DNA of 23,900 bases from positions 1-23,900 of the IMG/VR virus record IMGVR_UViG_3300029448_004109. One strand, written 5' to 3'. The position numbers were made by a program, and so were the translations under genes. Below the pieces are notes generated by a model that was given only the letters and a program-made list of their open reading frames with translations, was not told where the DNA came from and made no database searches. The stretch comes from a virus. Shown piece by piece: positions 7,679-18,432 of this stretch. Every line of letters begins with the position of its first letter. Positions within the stretch are counted from its first letter, which is position 1.

Positions 7679-7864
7679 TCATTTATTCTTTTCATAAACT
7701 TCCTTTCGGTCGATTCTAATATTAGTGTCAGCTTCAAAAGCTAACTTAACCTGTTTAATGCCAAGAGAGGTAACAACAATCTCACACAAGATAACGTCTG
7801 GTGCGTCTTTATCATAAATAACTATGCACTCCTGTTTCTTTCTCGTTAGTATAAGATTGCTCAT
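7679..7864 (-). CDS. csrA: CsrA-like RNA-binding global regulator, 61 aa
   Basis: The protein begins SNLILTRKKQECIVIYDKD and ends with IRIDRKEVYEKNK, matching CsrA/RsmA at both RNA-contact strands: the N-terminal LILTR and the C-terminal arginine of IDRKEVY (Arg53, equivalent to E. coli Arg44). The centre (VVTSLGIKQVKLAFEAD) follows the usual beta strands, with an insertion of a few residues after the first strand (about 18-26). CsrA dimers bind GGA in hairpin loops of messenger RNAs and change translation or stability. The ATG directly follows the polymerase stop (TAAATG) without a clear ribosome site, so translation probably depends on reinitiation. Two GGA-loop hairpins occur elsewhere in the window (17259-17279 and 18359-18379). 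Confidence 0.85.
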   Translation of the reverse strand: MSNLILTRKKQECIVIYDKDAPDVILCEIVVTSLGIKQVKLAFEADTNIRIDRKEVYEKNK

Positions 7865-9943: not shown

Positions 9944-9976
9944 GAACTTTAAACTTAAACTAAATAGGTGGTAATT

Positions 9977-10384
9977 ATGGCAACATATAAATCAGGTCCT
10001 GTAGAAGGAAATCAATCTTTTAAACCTTTCCCAGACGGAAATCTTGGCGTTAGATACGCTAAATTTACAGCTACAACTGCAATTGCATTAAACGATGTAA
10101 TTCAAATGGTAGACGTGTTTGCTGGTGAAACGGTTCATAACATTGTAATCAAAACTGGCGACTTAGACACAGGTACTGCACTTGTGCTTGACGTTGGCGA
10201 TGGTTCAGATGCTGACTACTACATTGACGGATCAACAATCGGTCAAGCTGGTGGTACAGATACACTAGATGCTAACACCGCACCAAAAACTTACACAGCT
10301 GATGACACAATTGATGTCTTAGCTCAAGTTGCTCCTGGTGGCGGCGGTACTGGTGACATTGAATTATGGGTAACAGTATCGTAA
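9977..10384 (+). CDS. Probable virion structural or decoration protein, 135 aa
   Basis: The ATG at 9977 has AGGTGG 5 nt before it; a GTG three codons earlier overlaps this site and was rejected. The protein has no Cys, is rich in Gly, Thr, Asp and Ala, and looks all-beta (DTGTALVLDVGDGSDADYYI, then IDVLAQVAPGGGGTGDIELW), resembling small head-decoration or tail proteins of marine phages. An enzyme motif is absent. It stands alone on the plus strand between two minus-strand operons, with its own promoter and strong terminator, suggesting separate and possibly high expression. The structural role is inferred from composition and faint resemblance only. Confidence 0.6.
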   Translation: MATYKSGPVEGNQSFKPFPDGNLGVRYAKFTATTAIALNDVIQMVDVFAGETVHNIVIKTGDLDTGTALVLDVGDGSDADYYIDGSTIGQAGGTDTLDANTAPKTYTADDTIDVLAQVAPGGGGTGDIELWVTVS

Positions 10385-12792: not shown

Positions 12793-12971
12793 TGTTTACT
12801 CCTATATAGTAGATACATACACACACCTACAAGAAACAATACAGATGTCAATGTAATGACATGATGTAATGTTGATGCAAGTGCAACTAAACCTAATAAA
12901 ATACTAGCTCCGATTAATACAGAGTTTTTGTAATCTATTAGGAATTCTTTAAATTTTGATAACTTCACCAT
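12789..12971 (-). CDS. Small two-span membrane protein, 60 aa
   Basis: The ATG at 12971 follows GAGGAGG by 6 nt, inside the last 23 bp of the VWA gene. The protein has a basic N-terminus (MVKLSKFKEFLIDYKN) and two adjacent hydrophobic segments (SVLIGASILLGLVALAS and VITLTSVLFLVGVCMYLLY), ending RSKQ. The form is compatible with a small holin or a membrane anchor. It is the first of three consecutive small membrane genes placed directly after the MoxR/VWA genes. Confidence 0.65.
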   Translation of the reverse strand: MVKLSKFKEFLIDYKNSVLIGASILLGLVALASTLHHVITLTSVLFLVGVCMYLLYRSKQ

Positions 12972-14067
12972 AAGGTGCCTCCTCACTAGCTGTTGTAACC
13001 CATAAAACTGGGTATGGTGGTTGATCTCCGAAGTCGTTTGACTCCAAGTCGGTAAGATACACAAGAGCAGATACTGCTGGATGTCGTTCATTGATGTAAT
13101 CAATTACTGGACTAAAGCAAGTACCACCTCTACCTTCGTAAGTAACCTTAAGTGGTAGATTTTCTCTAGTGTATTCTTCATCGGCACGTACTTCGGTATC
13201 ACATTGTAAGAAATGGATACGTTCAGGATTTGTGTCATGAAGTATTGAAGTGATCTCGCCTGTAAACTGTTCTAGCTCTGCATTACTGATTGAGCCAGAA
13301 GTATCTACAGCAACTGCGATCTCTTCTAAACATGGAGTATGCAATGACGGTAAGTACATACCTTGTGCAATAAACCTACGATTAGGTCGTATCCATGTAA
13401 AGTCTGATTTGTTGTTGGAACGTAAGAACCTAGCTAACGTCATTTTCCAATCAACTTTAGGTGCTAGTGCTTTTTCTATAAGTTCTTGTAAATGACCAGG
13501 TAACTTACCCATTGACTTAGCAGCTTCTGCTGCTTGTTGAATAGCAATTTCTATATCAGCTTCAAATTTACCTGACGCTGAACCATCACCGATAGATGGG
13601 TGGTCCATAACTCCACCACACCCACCGGGATCGTCTCCGTCTAGAAGTATTACTCCAAACGGACTATTGCCGTCTCCTAAATCGTCAGGCAGCAAATTGT
13701 ATACTTCTTCTGTAGACATACCGTCGTACTTGTCATCTAAGAGTTCGGTGTGTGGAAGTATGAAATTACTTTTCTTGAGAGCAAGATTGATTACATAATC
13801 AGCAGCGATATTCCACTTATGTGGGTCACGATGATCACGACGTAACATGTGCATAAGAGCTACATGCATAACTTCGTGTGCAATAAGACCAATGCGTTCT
13901 TCGTCACGTAATTTTAGAAACCACTTTGGGTTGTACTTAATGCACTCACCATCGGTTGCTGCTGTACCTACGCTTTCATCTTCGATAGGTTTTAAGCGTA
14001 GAGCTAGCGTCCCGAAAAATGGGCTACTAAGAATTAGCTGGGATCTAGCTTTTGTATACTCTTGCAT
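12949..14067 (-). CDS. VWA-like metallopeptidase-related protein (DUF2201 type), 372 aa
   Basis: The N-terminal domain has AHEVMH (the HExxH zinc motif, near residues 63-68), within LIAHEVMHVALMHMLRRD, as in the putative metallopeptidase domain of DUF2201. The C-terminal domain contains VAVDTSGSIS (253-262), the DxSxS metal-ion site of von Willebrand A folds, and TDLESND near the end. The start was set at ATG 14067 because AGGAG is 9 nt before it; the ATG at 14076 touches that site. Together with the MoxR ATPase two genes upstream it forms the classic MoxR-VWA pair, which acts as a chaperone or remodelling machine in bacteria. The target in this phage is unknown, and peptidase activity is unproven for the family. 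Confidence 0.85.
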   Translation of the reverse strand: MQEYTKARSQLILSSPFFGTLALRLKPIEDESVGTAATDGECIKYNPKWFLKLRDEERIGLIAHEVMHVALMHMLRRDHRDPHKWNIAADYVINLALKKSNFILPHTELLDDKYDGMSTEEVYNLLPDDLGDGNSPFGVILLDGDDPGGCGGVMDHPSIGDGSASGKFEADIEIAIQQAAEAAKSMGKLPGHLQELIEKALAPKVDWKMTLARFLRSNNKSDFTWIRPNRRFIAQGMYLPSLHTPCLEEIAVAVDTSGSISNAELEQFTGEITSILHDTNPERIHFLQCDTEVRADEEYTRENLPLKVTYEGRGGTCFSPVIDYINERHPAVSALVYLTDLESNDFGDQPPYPVLWVTTASEEAPYGEVIKI

Positions 14068-14068
14068 A

Positions 14069-14791
14069 TTACTCATCTCCTATGAGTGATGCAGTCAGAA
14101 TGGTTTTGTTTAAGTCGTTGTCTACAACAACCTGGTCAGCCATTTCTTTCTGCTGTTCTTGTTTACGCTTGCGCTGTTGTTTCTCATGAACTTTAGCAAG
14201 CTTTTCTGGTTCTACTAATTTAGATAACGCAGGCCAAGCTTTCATAGCTTGGTTTAACGTAGTAAATTTAAGCAACAACATATTTACTTTGTGACCTGCT
14301 ATGTCACGTTGTGCTTTTACTTTGCTGTTGTACTCTACGCATTCACATAAGTAATTAAGATCTGCGTCTTCGTATCTATTGAAAGTATATTGAAGATGCT
14401 CCATAGACGAACTGTAACTACTAGTAGAAACACCCATAGGCACAGCACGTTCTGTAGATAATGGTATTGATATACGATAATCTTCCTCTAGCTCTGTTTC
14501 AGATGTCATATCTTCATCTTCGTACGCACTAGACGTACTTGTATAATTGATAGGAACTAGACAAGTAAGATTACTGGTCTTACTGAACATAGCGTCGGGA
14601 TCTATAATGTCACCCAAATGCTCACGCATAGCTTCTTTAGCAGCTTCTACTTTGGGGCCGATGTACCTGTTGTAGATAGCATCGCCACGTGTAGCATCTA
14701 GCTCCAGTTTTGGATTAGACTTTTGATGTGAGTCTTCGAATTTGTTGACGATGTCACGTCGCAAATAGTCAGACATTCTTACTGTACTCAT
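14069..14791 (-). CDS. Nmad5-like phage protein between MoxR and VWA genes, 240 aa
   Basis: The N-terminus (MSDYLRRDIVNKFEDSH, then GDAIYNRYIGPKVEAAKEAM) and the later LLLKFTTLNQAMKAWPALSK resemble Nmad5, a domain proposed to associate with phage nucleotide modification. The last 50 residues are charged and helical (KVHEKQQRKRKQEQQKEM). No enzyme motif can be named. GGAGG lies 5 nt before the ATG, and its stop overlaps the region of the VWA gene start. Its place between the two partners of a MoxR-VWA module suggests it is a substrate or adaptor. The assignment is from memory of the family pattern. Confidence 0.5.
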   Translation of the reverse strand: MSTVRMSDYLRRDIVNKFEDSHQKSNPKLELDATRGDAIYNRYIGPKVEAAKEAMREHLGDIIDPDAMFSKTSNLTCLVPINYTSTSSAYEDEDMTSETELEEDYRISIPLSTERAVPMGVSTSSYSSSMEHLQYTFNRYEDADLNYLCECVEYNSKVKAQRDIAGHKVNMLLLKFTTLNQAMKAWPALSKLVEPEKLAKVHEKQQRKRKQEQQKEMADQVVVDNDLNKTILTASLIGDE

Positions 14792-14800
14792 ATATACCTC

Positions 14801-15817
14801 CTATAAAATTACAGTTGAGTTATGAGACAACCACTTATCTACAGCGTCGTGCGTGATAATTGATTTGTCTTTAATAACAGATTGTTTAATTGAAATAACC
14901 TGGAACTCTGTAGGTAACTTCTTGATTACCTTGACAATGTTCTCTATTTTCTCTGGACAAGCACGAGCTGCCAGAGCACCTGATAGAGCATACAAAACAG
15001 CCGGACTGTCGTCTGACTTGTAAGATGCTGGATTGTCTATGAGATGATCTATATCAGGCAAAGCTGAATAGATTTCTCTAAACGCTACGTATTCACCCGC
15101 TGGACCGTCACCGACAAGAGAAGATACACCGTAGAACAGTGTTTCTTCGTCCACGGCCGGTAACTTTAGTCGTTTGTCAACGAACGACCAGCTCCGAGGA
15201 GTCGGAAAAGCGTAGTTTTCAGCATTGAAATCAAACAGCAAGTTGGGTCTGTATCGTAAGAACGATACGAGAGACGTATCCACTCCATTGGATACTGCCC
15301 ACTCACACCAATCATCCAGATCGGCTGAAAGCTCGTAGTGCGCCAATCTGTTTCTAACAGGTGATGGCATTTGATAGACAGCTGCAGCATCAGTAAGTCT
15401 GTTACCAGCAGCAATGATTGACCAGCCGTCGGGTAATTTGTAATTACCGACTTCCCTGGTTATCAACAACTGTAGGAACGCGTTCTGAGTTGCAGGCGGT
15501 GCAGTTGGTAATTCGTCAATAAGAAAAATACCTTCTGTACCGTCTCTGTCTGCTATTGGAAACACATCAGGCACAGCCCAACGTGTAAATCTTTTTGCAG
15601 ATTCTTTGAGTTGTGCTACGTATGGCACACCTCTTACATCTACCGGGTCAAACAGGTTAGCCCTGAAGTCCAGTAGTTTCTTGTTGGTTTCATCAGCGAT
15701 CTGTTGTGGGATCTCTGACTTACCTATGCCGGGTCCACCCCATATCATGGTGTTGATGCCCGCTTGCATGTTTTGTTTTATCTCAGACTTTAAATGAGAT
15801 GGTTTGATTGAATGCAT
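14801..15817 (-). CDS. MoxR-family AAA+ ATPase, 338 aa
   Basis: Walker A GGPGIGKS (27-34), Walker B IFLIDE (97-102), sensor 1 AAGNR (136-140) and arginine-finger region PSPVRNR (151-157) are all intact. The spacing and the FDPVDVRGVP segment fit the MoxR branch. Such ATPases work with a VWA-domain partner to remodel proteins; the partner is encoded two genes downstream (12949-14067). AGGAG stands 6 nt before the ATG. In phages these pairs are found near structural or replication genes, and what they remodel is unclear. Confidence 0.9.
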   Translation of the reverse strand: MHSIKPSHLKSEIKQNMQAGINTMIWGGPGIGKSEIPQQIADETNKKLLDFRANLFDPVDVRGVPYVAQLKESAKRFTRWAVPDVFPIADRDGTEGIFLIDELPTAPPATQNAFLQLLITREVGNYKLPDGWSIIAAGNRLTDAAAVYQMPSPVRNRLAHYELSADLDDWCEWAVSNGVDTSLVSFLRYRPNLLFDFNAENYAFPTPRSWSFVDKRLKLPAVDEETLFYGVSSLVGDGPAGEYVAFREIYSALPDIDHLIDNPASYKSDDSPAVLYALSGALAARACPEKIENIVKVIKKLPTEFQVISIKQSVIKDKSIITHDAVDKWLSHNSTVIL

Positions 15818-16368: not shown

Positions 16369-17118
16369 CTAAGCGTTAGCAAAGACCGACTCACAATGCT
16401 GTATTGACGCATTGTTGTAAGTGTTTGCAACTTTACCTGACGAATCGGCGTGTTGTCTGAAATTCCATTCAGATAACCTTTGTAGTCTTCGCTCAACTTC
16501 GTTCTGCACACGGTCACGGTCTAGTGAAGTGCTTTTCAGTCCGAACTTGTCGTCTATAGCGGCTATTGCATCGCGCAACATCCGAGCTTTTCTACCTAGC
16601 TGCATCATCTTATCTTCTCGTTGGATGAGCCAATCAGGTATCTCGTCATTTGCATTGATGCTGGACAAAGAGTCACTGTATTCATAAGCAATACTGCTGA
16701 ACTCTGCCCACGTTCTGGTGTTCAACGATAGCACGTTGATACCAGTTGATTGAGGGTCAACCTCCAACAACTGACTAATACCTTCTACGATGGTATTGAC
16801 CTGGTTGTCGTAATATATCTCCTCGTCAGCGGCTTTGTCGCCGTTGAATGTAAGAGCTGTTGTAGCTTTCTGGTCGAACACGGCCATGATGCTACCAACT
16901 ACAGACTCGTTGAACGTCGGGTTACCTTCGTTATCGAGCTTGTATCTCTTGAAGAAGAAATCAGGGAGCGCAATTGCTGGTTTCTCAGCACGTGCTTCCG
17001 AGCCTTCTGGGTCACCGTTGGTGTCAGGTCGAAACGCTGCTTCTTCGGTGAATTGTGGTTGAACCAATTCTGGTCCTATTTCTTGATCGTCTGGATCAAA
17101 GTAATCGTCATTAGACAT
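16369..17118 (-). CDS. Phage protein of unknown function, 249 aa
   Basis: The ATG at 17118 follows GGAGG by 6 nt; an in-frame ATG six codons upstream has none. Residues 1-50 are acidic and probably disordered (MSNDDYFDPDDQEIGPEL). The middle has FFFKRYKLDNEGNPTF and a helical region, and about 150-215 form long helices (REDKMMQLGRKARMLRDAIA; VQNEVERRLQRLSEWNFRQH). It has no enzyme motif and is not recognised. It is a single-gene unit with its own terminator, between the parS-like region and the GGTACA array. A DNA-binding role for these sites is possible but unsupported. Confidence 0.7.
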   Translation of the reverse strand: MSNDDYFDPDDQEIGPELVQPQFTEEAAFRPDTNGDPEGSEARAEKPAIALPDFFFKRYKLDNEGNPTFNESVVGSIMAVFDQKATTALTFNGDKAADEEIYYDNQVNTIVEGISQLLEVDPQSTGINVLSLNTRTWAEFSSIAYEYSDSLSSINANDEIPDWLIQREDKMMQLGRKARMLRDAIAAIDDKFGLKSTSLDRDRVQNEVERRLQRLSEWNFRQHADSSGKVANTYNNASIQHCESVFANA

Positions 17119-17137
17119 ATGTGCCTCCTTTGGCATT

Positions 17138-17151
17138 TATTATTAATAATA
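17138..17151. repeat. 14-bp AT palindrome TATTATTAATAATA
   Basis: A perfect palindrome 20 bp upstream of the ATG at 17118. It may overlap the -10 region of the minus-strand promoter or be an easily melted element next to the GGTACA array. AT-only palindromes are common by chance, so this is weak. Confidence 0.4.
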
Positions 17152-17258
17152 TGTACATGGGGTATTGGTGGTTTGCGTCAACACTCTTGGATAATAGTTG
17201 TTACGATTAGTGGCCTTGCTACTAGACCAACACCCAACGTACACAATAACCATGTATT

Positions 17259-17279
17259 AATGACGACGGAGGAGTCATT
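17259..17279 (+). promoter_or_regulatory. Hairpin with GACGGAGGA loop, copy 1 (candidate CsrA site)
   Basis: AATGAC and GTCATT form a perfect 6-bp stem around the loop GACGGAGGA. The box ATGTATTAA (17252-17260) leads into it. A second copy at 18359-18379 has the same box and loop but a different, also perfect stem. Such covariation indicates selection for the paired structure. The loop holds ACGGA, which fits the A-N-GGA core bound by CsrA, and the phage encodes a CsrA-like protein. Only the plus-strand RNA would carry GGA. Confidence 0.6.
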
Positions 17280-17281
17280 CC

Positions 17282-17617
17282 TGTACCGGATGTCTGAAAG
17301 TAGCGGTACAGGGCTAAGTGCTTGATATAACGAGAGTTTATGGAAAACTGTACCAGAACGATATTAGTAGTGGTACAGGACAGAAGCCTCTCGGCGTAAG
17401 GCTTAGAGGCGTATCTGTACCAGATGTACCATTAGTTATGAATATTAAACCTAAAATCTATAACTATGGTCCACGGTCGATTACTGTTATCTCCTAGAAA
17501 GTACTGGTACATTCGGTACAAAGACGTAGTTTTAGCCGGCATCGTAGATCTGCTGTGCGTCTCAGCTGTACCAGCAAGACGTGATGTAAGTGGTACACAC
17601 GTGGTACAGGCGGTACA
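17282..17617. repeat. Iteron-like array of twelve GGTACA hexamers
   Basis: GGTACA or its complement TGTACC starts at 17282, 17305, 17349, 17372, 17416, 17425, 17506, 17515, 17567, 17592, 17603 and 17612. Most fit CTGTACC(A/G) or its complement. Two inverted pairs share the same 15-bp spacer (CCTGTACCG to CGGTACAGG; CTGTACCA to TGGTACAG). Three tandem pairs have a 9-bp period (17416/17425, 17506/17515, 17603/17612). The hexamer also occurs singly in genes elsewhere, but not clustered. This layout is typical of protein-binding iterons at origins, centromeres or multi-site operators. Confidence 0.8.
17386..17410. other. Hairpin GCCTCT / AGAGGC
   Basis: A 6-bp perfect stem with a 13-nt loop lies inside the GGTACA array. 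AAGCC and GGCTT in the same stretch offer an alternative pairing. Whether it acts as DNA or RNA is unclear. Confidence 0.4.
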
Positions 17618-17668
17618 GTCGAGACTGCACACCAGCCTAGAGGCAGGCAACCACGTTCCTTGACGATG

Positions 17669-17684
17669 CATCAGCAAGCTGATG
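17669..17684. other. Hairpin CATCAGC-AA-GCTGATG
   Basis: A perfect 7-bp inverted repeat with a 2-bp centre, just past the last GGTACA element. As DNA it is a near-palindromic 16-bp site suitable for a dimeric regulator. As RNA the loop would open to at least four bases. Confidence 0.5.
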
Positions 17685-17718
17685 ATAGTAGTACGGCACA
17701 CTGGGATGGTCTGTACAT

Positions 17719-17751
17719 AAAAAAAGGTGAAGGACATAAGCCCCTCACCTT
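17719..17751 (-). terminator. Rho-independent terminator after the 107-aa gene
   Basis: On the minus strand AAGGTGAGGG pairs with CCTTCACCTT (one G-T wobble) around an 8-nt loop, followed by seven T (17725-17719). It lies 10 bp after the stop at 17762 and closes the two-gene minus-strand unit. Confidence 0.85.
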
Positions 17752-17761
17752 ATTGTTAACG

Positions 17762-18085
17762 TTAACTGTTACGATGCTGCTCGAAGTCGAACTCCATCTG
17801 TTGTGGTTCACGTTTAGTAGCCATTGGTTTTGGCTCTTGGTCTTCGGTTGTTAGTAACTCATCAGTCTTATGATAACCTTTCTTGGTTTCATCATATGCT
17901 TGTTTACCTACTGAACCGAGTACACGTACTGACTTGTCTGCTACATAGACTGTTGCGCCTATAGCTTTGAAGCCTAAGCTAATGGTGTTACCCACTAGCC
18001 TAGTTGTACCTTTGACCATGTCTGTCATTGACATGTTGGTTGCTTGTTGTACATGACCTTTTACTTTATTAGATAGGTTGTCCAT
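17762..18085 (-). CDS. Small phage protein of unknown function, 107 aa
   Basis: GGAGG stands 6 nt before the ATG at 18085. The protein has an amphipathic, weakly hydrophobic middle (TTRLVGNTISLGFKAIGATV, VYVADKSVRVLGSVGKQAY) and an acidic, probably disordered tail (TTEDQEPKPMATKREPQQME). The middle could attach to a membrane but is not a clear membrane span. The C-terminal QQMEFDFEQ is reminiscent of a sliding-clamp-binding peptide (Q-x-x-[hydrophobic]-x-x-F-F-like), though not exact. No family is recognised. It overlaps the preceding gene by 17 bp. Confidence 0.6.
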   Translation of the reverse strand: MDNLSNKVKGHVQQATNMSMTDMVKGTTRLVGNTISLGFKAIGATVYVADKSVRVLGSVGKQAYDETKKGYHKTDELLTTEDQEPKPMATKREPQQMEFDFEQHRNS

Positions 18086-18287
18086 TGCTGGCCTCCTTCT
18101 TCTCGATAGGGAATAGAAAGATTGGTTCGACCTTTCCGTCTATTACTAATGGTTGAAAGTTAGGGTAGAGCGTGATGCCTTTCCCACCGTTGTTGGCTAT
18201 ACCTATGTCAGTCCATCCTGGATTGTCTTTGGTTGTGCCGTTCTCATCCTTAGATGTGTAAGGACGTTTTACTTTAGCTACGTACAT
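18069..18287 (-). CDS. Small phage protein of unknown function, 72 aa
   Basis: ATG at 18287 with GGAGG 7 nt upstream; an in-frame ATG at 18344 lacks a ribosome site. The sequence MYVAKVKRPYTSKDENGTTK is followed by NPGWTDIGIANNGGKGITLY and VEPIFLFPIEKK. It looks like a compact beta-rich domain, in the style of small phage replication or ssDNA-binding accessory proteins, but no family is recognised. Together with the 107-aa gene it forms a short operon between the two structured islands. Confidence 0.6.
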   Translation of the reverse strand: MYVAKVKRPYTSKDENGTTKDNPGWTDIGIANNGGKGITLYPNFQPLVIDGKVEPIFLFPIEKKEASNGQPI

Positions 18288-18358
18288 TGTGTTACCTCCA
18301 CGTTGTGTAGTTGTTATGTCTACGTCTGATTGACCTAGATTCATATGACCTATGTATT

Positions 18359-18379
18359 AACATCGACGGAGGAGATGTT
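18359..18379 (+). promoter_or_regulatory. Hairpin with GACGGAGGA loop, copy 2 (candidate CsrA site)
   Basis: AACATC and GATGTT form a perfect 6-bp stem around the same GACGGAGGA loop as at 17259-17279, exactly 1100 bp away, and the same box ATGTATTAA (18352-18360) precedes it. GTACCGGA follows both copies within about 15 bp. Here an ATG in the 3' arm (18375) lies just after the GGAGGA, so a short 39-codon frame to 18494 could be translated from it. It stands about 190 bp upstream of the small terminase gene and would lie in its leader if transcription began near 18350. Confidence 0.6.
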
Positions 18380-18392
18380 GGAGGGGTACCGG

Positions 18393-18432
18393 ACAAGGTT
18401 CCAAGGCGAAAAAATTAGAAACAAGGTTCCAA
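18393..18432. repeat. 12-bp direct repeat ACAAGGTTCCAA, spaced 28 bp
   Basis: Perfect copies at 18393-18404 and 18421-18432, each followed shortly by GCGAA. GGGTACCGG (18384-18392) and GGGTACTGG (18449-18457) form a second, looser pair around them. Their place just upstream of the small terminase gene suggests terminase-binding (pac or cos) sites, since these often lie next to that gene. That role is inference. Confidence 0.6.

Follow-up and report, generated by a model that had tools for sequence, protein, structure and literature searches.

The question raised by this locus is what two similar hairpins are doing in a phage that encodes a CsrA homologue. The stretch of DNA that we analysed (23,900 nt of an IMG/VR virus record, hereafter the window) contains two plus-strand hairpins that have a common GACGGAGGA segment, differing paired stems and a preceding ATGTATTAA box. 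The original prediction had taken the stem covariation to imply a folded RNA, or a cruciform, under selection, and had proposed that the hairpins are targets of the phage CsrA, decoys for host CsrA, or leader switches ahead of the packaging operon. Both hairpins, their stems, the common segment and the boxes are all present where they had been placed (please see Table 1 for the positions of these and other features).

Table 1 Features of the window, with positions, strand and details
Feature	Position	Strand	Details
CsrA homologue	7679..7864	-	PF02599, E 5.6e-11
First gene of the long leftward operon	16369..17136	-	255 aa; likely start 17118 after GGAGG
Hairpin 1 and box	17252..17279	+	ATGTATTAA then AATGAC-GACGGAGGA-GTCATT (letters ATGTATTAATGAC-GACGGAGGA-GTCATT)
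Conserved non-coding element, ~420 bp	17280..17701		12 TGTACC/GGTACA sites; adjoins hairpin 1
Small inverted repeat CATCAG-CAAG-CTGATG	17669..17684		right end of the element, then ATAGTAGT
Intrinsic terminator ending the two-gene leftward operon	17724..17751	-	
Two-gene leftward operon	17762..18344	-	ORFs 18069-18344 and 17762-18085; 107 aa and 91 aa
Hairpin 2 and box	18352..18379	+	ATGTATTAA then AACATC-GACGGAGGA-GATGTT (letters ATGTATTAACATC-GACGGAGGA-GATGTT)
Two ACAAGGTTCCAA direct repeats, 28 bp apart	18393..18432 (18393-18404, 18421-18432)		adjoin site 2

The hairpin pair and its counterparts in related phages

In the window, GACGGAGGA occurs twice while 0.06 occurrences are expected, a count of two being reached in no shuffle, and each 21-mer folds better than its own shuffles (z ~ -2.5). 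The ATGTATTAA box by itself is a weak signal, with three occurrences in the window versus 0.54 expected. The exact pattern ATGTATTAANNNNGACGGAGGA was found in three other IMG/VR contigs, with two copies in each and ~1.1 kb between the copies. Contigs L001 and L002 are near-identical to the window, and L003 is ~82% identical to it. Compensatory stem changes recur in relatives, in agreement with the selection for folding that had been claimed from the window; copy 1 of L003, for instance, has a compensatory change from A-T to G-C (AATGGC/GCCATT). We regard the element at the two related sites as folded, maintained by selection and possibly extruded as a DNA hairpin.

The nine nucleotides of GACGGAGGA had been described as a loop. 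They are invariant in the window as claimed, but they can fold further, into tandem G-A pairs and a C(GGA)G triloop. The alternative fold is C-GA-C-GGA-G-GA-G, and a nearest-neighbour calculation with RNA parameters pairs the C and G of the triloop. Copy 2 of L003 (AACGACGACGGAGGAGGAGTT) breaks the plain 6-bp stem. We rejected the reading of this copy as a broken hairpin, as it can be read instead with tandem G-A as AAC-GA-C-GA-C-GGA-G-GA-G-GA-GTT. The GAC-NNN-GGA pattern recurs with other letters, as GACTTCGGA in L082 and GACAAGGGA in L080. Intrinsic terminators were also considered as the identity of either hairpin and were ruled out, since a T run follows neither of the two in the window. 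Rfam covariance models gave no relevant match for the region up to E 5.

The carriers are a widespread family of uncultured phages, apparently marine. Across this family, site 1 denotes the position directly left of the conserved ~420-bp element, and site 2 the position directly left of the ACAAGGTTCCAA repeats, which precede TerS or an inserted HNH gene. Most of the dozens of related phages have a hairpin at both orthologous sites, each just upstream of a leftward operon, and the hairpins are still in place in relatives having 3-5 kb between site 1 and site 2; some relatives have no recognisable hairpin at one or both sites. The hairpin and box sequences are wholly different between phages, yet they are matched inside one phage, where the loop or the loop-proximal letters and the adjacent box are common to both hairpins and the stems differ. 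The mean local-alignment score of site 1 to site 2 was 34.3 within phages compared to 19.9 between phages, and the within-phage mean was reached in none of 20,000 permutations. Perfect hairpins beating 95% of shuffles were found at 48% of site 1 and 40% of site 2 compared to 14% of control windows, in a strict test that misses hairpins containing G-A or G-T.

Individual phages illustrate the matching. L103 has ATC-TCT-GAT at both sites with different stems, L029 has a TTTA loop at both sites, and L141 has CGAC-GAA-GTCG at one site and CGAC-AAC-GTCG at the other. Besides GNA, the loops among relatives are TAT, TTTA, TCT, CTT, AAG and GGTA, and the stems reach 12 bp; several relatives have C-GAA-G loops adjoining ATAA. 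Close relatives with TerS 93-99% identical carry an unrelated hairpin, type B, of sequence CACGAGC-TAY-GCTCGTG, at the same two positions, the window itself having type A. In L141, a third copy of the hairpin and box lies elsewhere in the same contig (AATATCGACTTCGTCGATATT TGTTCATGG on the minus strand).

Direct repeats that are rapidly replaced wholesale, and that flank a 1.1-kb segment in the window, might also be read as products of mobility or recombination (transposon-like ends or gene-conversion tracts) that have no part in regulation. We consider this very improbable. There is no transposase between the repeats, and the interior segment is homologous across hairpin types. Type A has exactly two copies in the 32-kb contig G001, and in the near-complete 60-kb relative G003 the type B hairpin is confined to these two sites, the copies being at operon starts in both cases.

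CsrA, the leftward operons and the folding strand

The CsrA homologue of the window is genuine by its match to PF02599, and it is conserved in relatives with identities to the window of 97% (L090/L007), 90% (L148; contig of L010) and 71% (L153; G005). The proposal that the hairpins are its targets, or decoys for host CsrA, fails on the same comparison, in which CsrA is conserved while both hairpins are replaced wholesale. L007 has the 97% identical CsrA, yet a different hairpin, CACGAGC-TAT-GCTCGTG, at both positions. On the plus strand at site 1, no more than 13 of 52 loci have the A-N-GGA motif; about a third of the loci lack it altogether, on either strand and at either site, and across the phage family its occurrence at the two sites is sporadic on both strands. 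In relatives, it is not kept wherever CsrA is kept. Because the target vanishes while the regulator stays unchanged, the function that is conserved is not that of a CsrA site. At the hairpins the plus strand is non-coding, and the genes that directly follow each hairpin are leftward genes of the minus strand, so that a plus-strand RNA target would be on the wrong strand to control them. What speaks for CsrA is that the phage encodes the homologue and that the type A loop has A-C-GGA on the plus strand, type A phages thus having the A-N-GGA letters of CsrA/RsmA binding sites in a hairpin. Unlike such sites, the hairpins are on the wrong strand relative to the adjacent genes and the letters are lost in phages that keep CsrA. 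Moreover, the GGA in GACGGAGGA is accounted for by the recurrent GAC-NNN-GGA fold. A role as CsrA targets or decoys seems to us extremely unlikely, and GGA letters in a hairpin may be a poor ground for calling CsrA sites.

Hairpin 1 is just upstream of the long leftward operon (which starts at ~17118), and hairpin 2 is just upstream of the leftward two-gene operon, whose second gene has a likely start at ~18287 after GGAGG. The description of the pair as lying ahead of the packaging operon applies, by position only, to hairpin 2 and does not apply to hairpin 1; both hairpins are matched to leftward operons. Since the terminator at 17724-17751 closes the two-gene operon, the long leftward operon needs its own start inside 17137-17720. 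On the minus strand past the hairpin, the sequence is A+T-rich, followed often by ATGG or ATGA and then by a ribosome-binding site and start codon. Scoring both leftward operons across the family with a sigma-70 -35/-10 matrix, which is that of E. coli and may not be that of the host, gave nothing beyond shuffles (mean z -0.54 and -0.32). The ACAAGGTTCCAA repeats are conserved upstream of TerS in relatives and are a possible packaging site or operator. In many relatives (L065, L069, L039, L022), an HNH-type gene directly before TerS splits TerS from the ACAAGGTTCCAA region.

To see which strand folds, we compared 47 hairpins, picked by eye from related phages that are not independent of one another, to their complements. 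RNA parameters gave the plus strand the higher stability in 25 cases and the minus strand in 3; with DNA parameters, the counts were 22 and 0. An earlier hairpin finder had accepted G-T on the plus strand only; a scan with equal penalty for G-T and A-C showed the plus strand to have many G-T and G-A in the stem interior, and most of its A-C cases were outer extensions or alternative folds off the conserved position, as sorted by eye. L138 is a strong single case, in which the inner stem is swapped from GCC/GGC to GGC/GCC between the copies, with the flanking G-A mismatches kept in both. The plus strand, which is the template for the leftward operons, folds better than its complement because of these G·T and tandem G·A mismatches.

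This strand result disfavours a leader RNA on the leftward transcript. Such hairpins in the leader of the leftward mRNAs (for nut/put-like antitermination, mRNA protection or translational control) would agree with their placement 30-130 nt ahead of the gene that opens each leftward operon, and with the GAA of the plus strand being UUCG on the minus strand in several phages. Two copies with phage-specific loops also resemble what is generally known of lambda nutL/nutR boxB, with two sites per genome, one per early operon, and a free stem. Unlike boxB, which forms in the transcribed (mRNA) strand, the fold here is favoured on the template strand; the minus strand folds worse by 25:3 and 22:0, and the interior G-T and G-A of the plus strand become A-C and C-T on it. 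We find leader RNA quite unlikely.

Plus-strand RNA is a different matter because RNA would give the same strand bias. Rightward transcripts would then cross both sites, and the folded RNA would be bound by a phage-specific protein or would act as an antisense or leader element. The better-folding strand is indeed the plus strand, and hairpin 2, ~190 nt upstream of TerS, could sit in a late leader. However, both sites are placed relative to leftward genes, there is no rightward gene at site 1, a TATAAT candidate for TerS lies downstream of hairpin 2, and Rfam has no match. On balance, we think plus-strand RNA hairpins unlikely, with some weight left to them by the strand bias.

Comparison with the early promoters of phage N4

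Phage N4, of the Schitoviridae, has three early promoters served by its virion RNA polymerase, with a template-strand hairpin and a transcription start a few nucleotides after it. To our knowledge, detailed knowledge of hairpin promoters comes from N4 and its close relatives only. In the N4 early promoters, the stem may vary, but the hairpin must form and its loop must be contacted (PMC4496689). The sequence of the P1 promoter has been given (PMC12633501), and analogous hairpins have been described in N4-like Pseudomonas phages (PMC3715699). As a positive control, a C-GNA-G hairpin scan of N4 recovered the template-strand hairpins GAAGC-GGA-GCTTC and GTTGC-GAA-GCAAC, adjoining AAAA/ATAA.

The elements described here resemble the N4 early promoters in having a template-strand hairpin just upstream of early genes, an A/T spacer and few copies per genome, in combining stems that are free to vary with a single loop class per phage, and, in several relatives, in having the C-GNA-G triloop. 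As in N4, template-strand hairpins lie upstream of early operons in several copies per genome, where the early timing is presumed. The three-nucleotide G-R-A loop of N4, with G at -8 in the stem, is not general: GAA/GGA triloops are seen in some relatives only, and type A fits the N4 loop only if the tandem G-A fold is accepted. Unlike N4, there are two sites rather than three, the loops and stems are far more diverse between phages, the stems reach 12 bp with tandem G-A, an extra matched box of ~20 nt is present, and no virion RNA polymerase was found.

The N4 architecture places a hairpin of the template strand, a short A/T spacer and then a purine start before early genes, and we therefore propose phage-specific hairpin promoters. 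The sequence comparison shows two sites per phage, their position at operon starts, the match within phages and divergence between phages, a fold that favours the plus strand, and no sigma-70 promoter beyond chance. From a matched hairpin at an operon start we infer a promoter, in which the hairpin would be formed by DNA rather than plus-strand RNA and the recognition factor would be encoded by the phage. Our preferred reading, held tentatively and with somewhat less than even confidence, is that the two elements are DNA-hairpin promoters of the template strand, built like the early promoters of phage N4. The hairpin would form in the plus strand, the template for leftward transcription, adjoining an A+T-rich box and a putative start rich in purines. 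The hairpin and box would be read by a recognition factor, different from one related phage to another, and leftward RNA would start just beyond the hairpin, in the manner of the N4 early promoters.

In the near-complete relative G003, no single-subunit RNA polymerase was detected. The PF00940 profile gave no match, although its control genomes gave none either, and tblastn with the N4 mini-vRNAP gave no meaningful match. A motif-pattern search returned the DNA polymerase's own motif B as the sole convincing one. The 2547-aa virion protein has no conserved motif B, and PDB, Pfam and PHROGs returned no polymerase for it. An N4-like virion RNA polymerase was thus not found by these searches, which a very divergent enzyme might escape, and the elements are therefore not filed as members of the N4 promoter family.

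The 2547-aa virion protein (L154:10741-18384, minus strand) has an N-terminal lysozyme domain, an HExxH motif and a C-terminal match to virion structural families, and is similar to the T7 gp16 ejection protein.

A broader claim would be that the elements form a new DNA-hairpin promoter class in a widespread phage family without recognisable N4-type polymerase. Hairpin/box specificity would turn over phage by phage with the two copies evolving in concert, so that an unrecognised RNA polymerase, or a phage factor making the host polymerase read extruded hairpins, would have to exist. We hold this claim to be doubtful. If it is true, the N4 architecture, with matched specificity that changes fast, would also exist in a separate phage family in which no N4 polymerase is seen; extruded DNA hairpins would then be a more general way of starting phage transcription, with a further factor to look for.

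The conserved element beside hairpin 1 and other genes

Hairpin 1 adjoins the conserved ~420-bp element, whose sites in the window are spaced by 23, 44, 23, 44, 9, 81, 9, 52, 25, 11 and 9. A model built on the sequence to the right of hairpin 1 detected the element in dozens of contigs from related phages, always in the same orientation and preceding TerS, and a conserved 18-mer added further copies. The core spacings 9, 81, 9, 52 and then 25, 11, 9 are kept in all 53 of the 53 distinct copies; in a few copies, a spacing is interrupted by one additional site, or the outer spacings are shifted by 1-9 bp. Lineages differ in the outer base of the sites, which changes concertedly (CTGTACC/GGTACAG versus GTGTACC/GGTACAC), and the stem of the inverted repeat at the right end has compensated changes between phages.

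A large structured RNA was at first favoured for 17280-17701 and later appeared less likely, as unbiased covariation in 41 sequences was dominated by lineage differences and gave no helices. Since all half-sites change in concert and the spacing is near-invariant, the element fits DNA binding better than RNA. It is probably a site at which a nucleoprotein complex with a fixed geometry assembles, perhaps a replication origin or a control region for the long leftward operon. Rfam had no match to the element. It was not found in isolated phages, where one search gave chance-level matches only, and bacterial genomes had nine exact 18-mer matches to the element core, none with the array. The 12-site element with near-invariant spacing is a lead independent of the hairpins.

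The array also bears on a replication reading of the hairpins, in which the phage primase, or another replication protein, would use them for single-strand initiation and the 12-site element would be the origin. RSF1010 ssi sites are a precedent for single-strand initiation. Like these and the Frpo single-stranded promoters of the F plasmid, as generally known, a one-strand DNA hairpin would be the start site here, although the plasmid elements work on single strands that are being transferred or replicated. A primase is encoded by the phage itself, the hairpin is one-stranded with an adjacent box, and site 1 adjoins the iteron-like array. Priming sites would leave unexplained that site 2 stays with the operon start even 3-5 kb from the array, and both sites have the same orientation. 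We regard initiation of replication as improbable and retain hairpin promoters as the preferred reading.

Several other genes were noticed. Positions 72-374 of the window encode a fragment that by eye resembles a class III nucleotide cyclase in its C-terminal domain, which is unusual for a phage; the 592-aa relative (L148 16109-17887) is, also by eye, like a CHASE2-type receptor cyclase. A protein cluster at L148 17884-20000 and L149 1-1486 is, again by eye, like FecR, a curli-type subunit and CsgG. On the minus strand of the window, 12949-15817 encodes a MoxR-type ATPase (PHROG ATPase) adjoining a DUF2201 metallopeptidase/VWA protein, the latter having homologues in many other phages. Finally, a lone rightward ORF of 138 aa (9968-10384, plus strand), which G003 and G005 also have in conserved form, lies among the leftward genes of the block.
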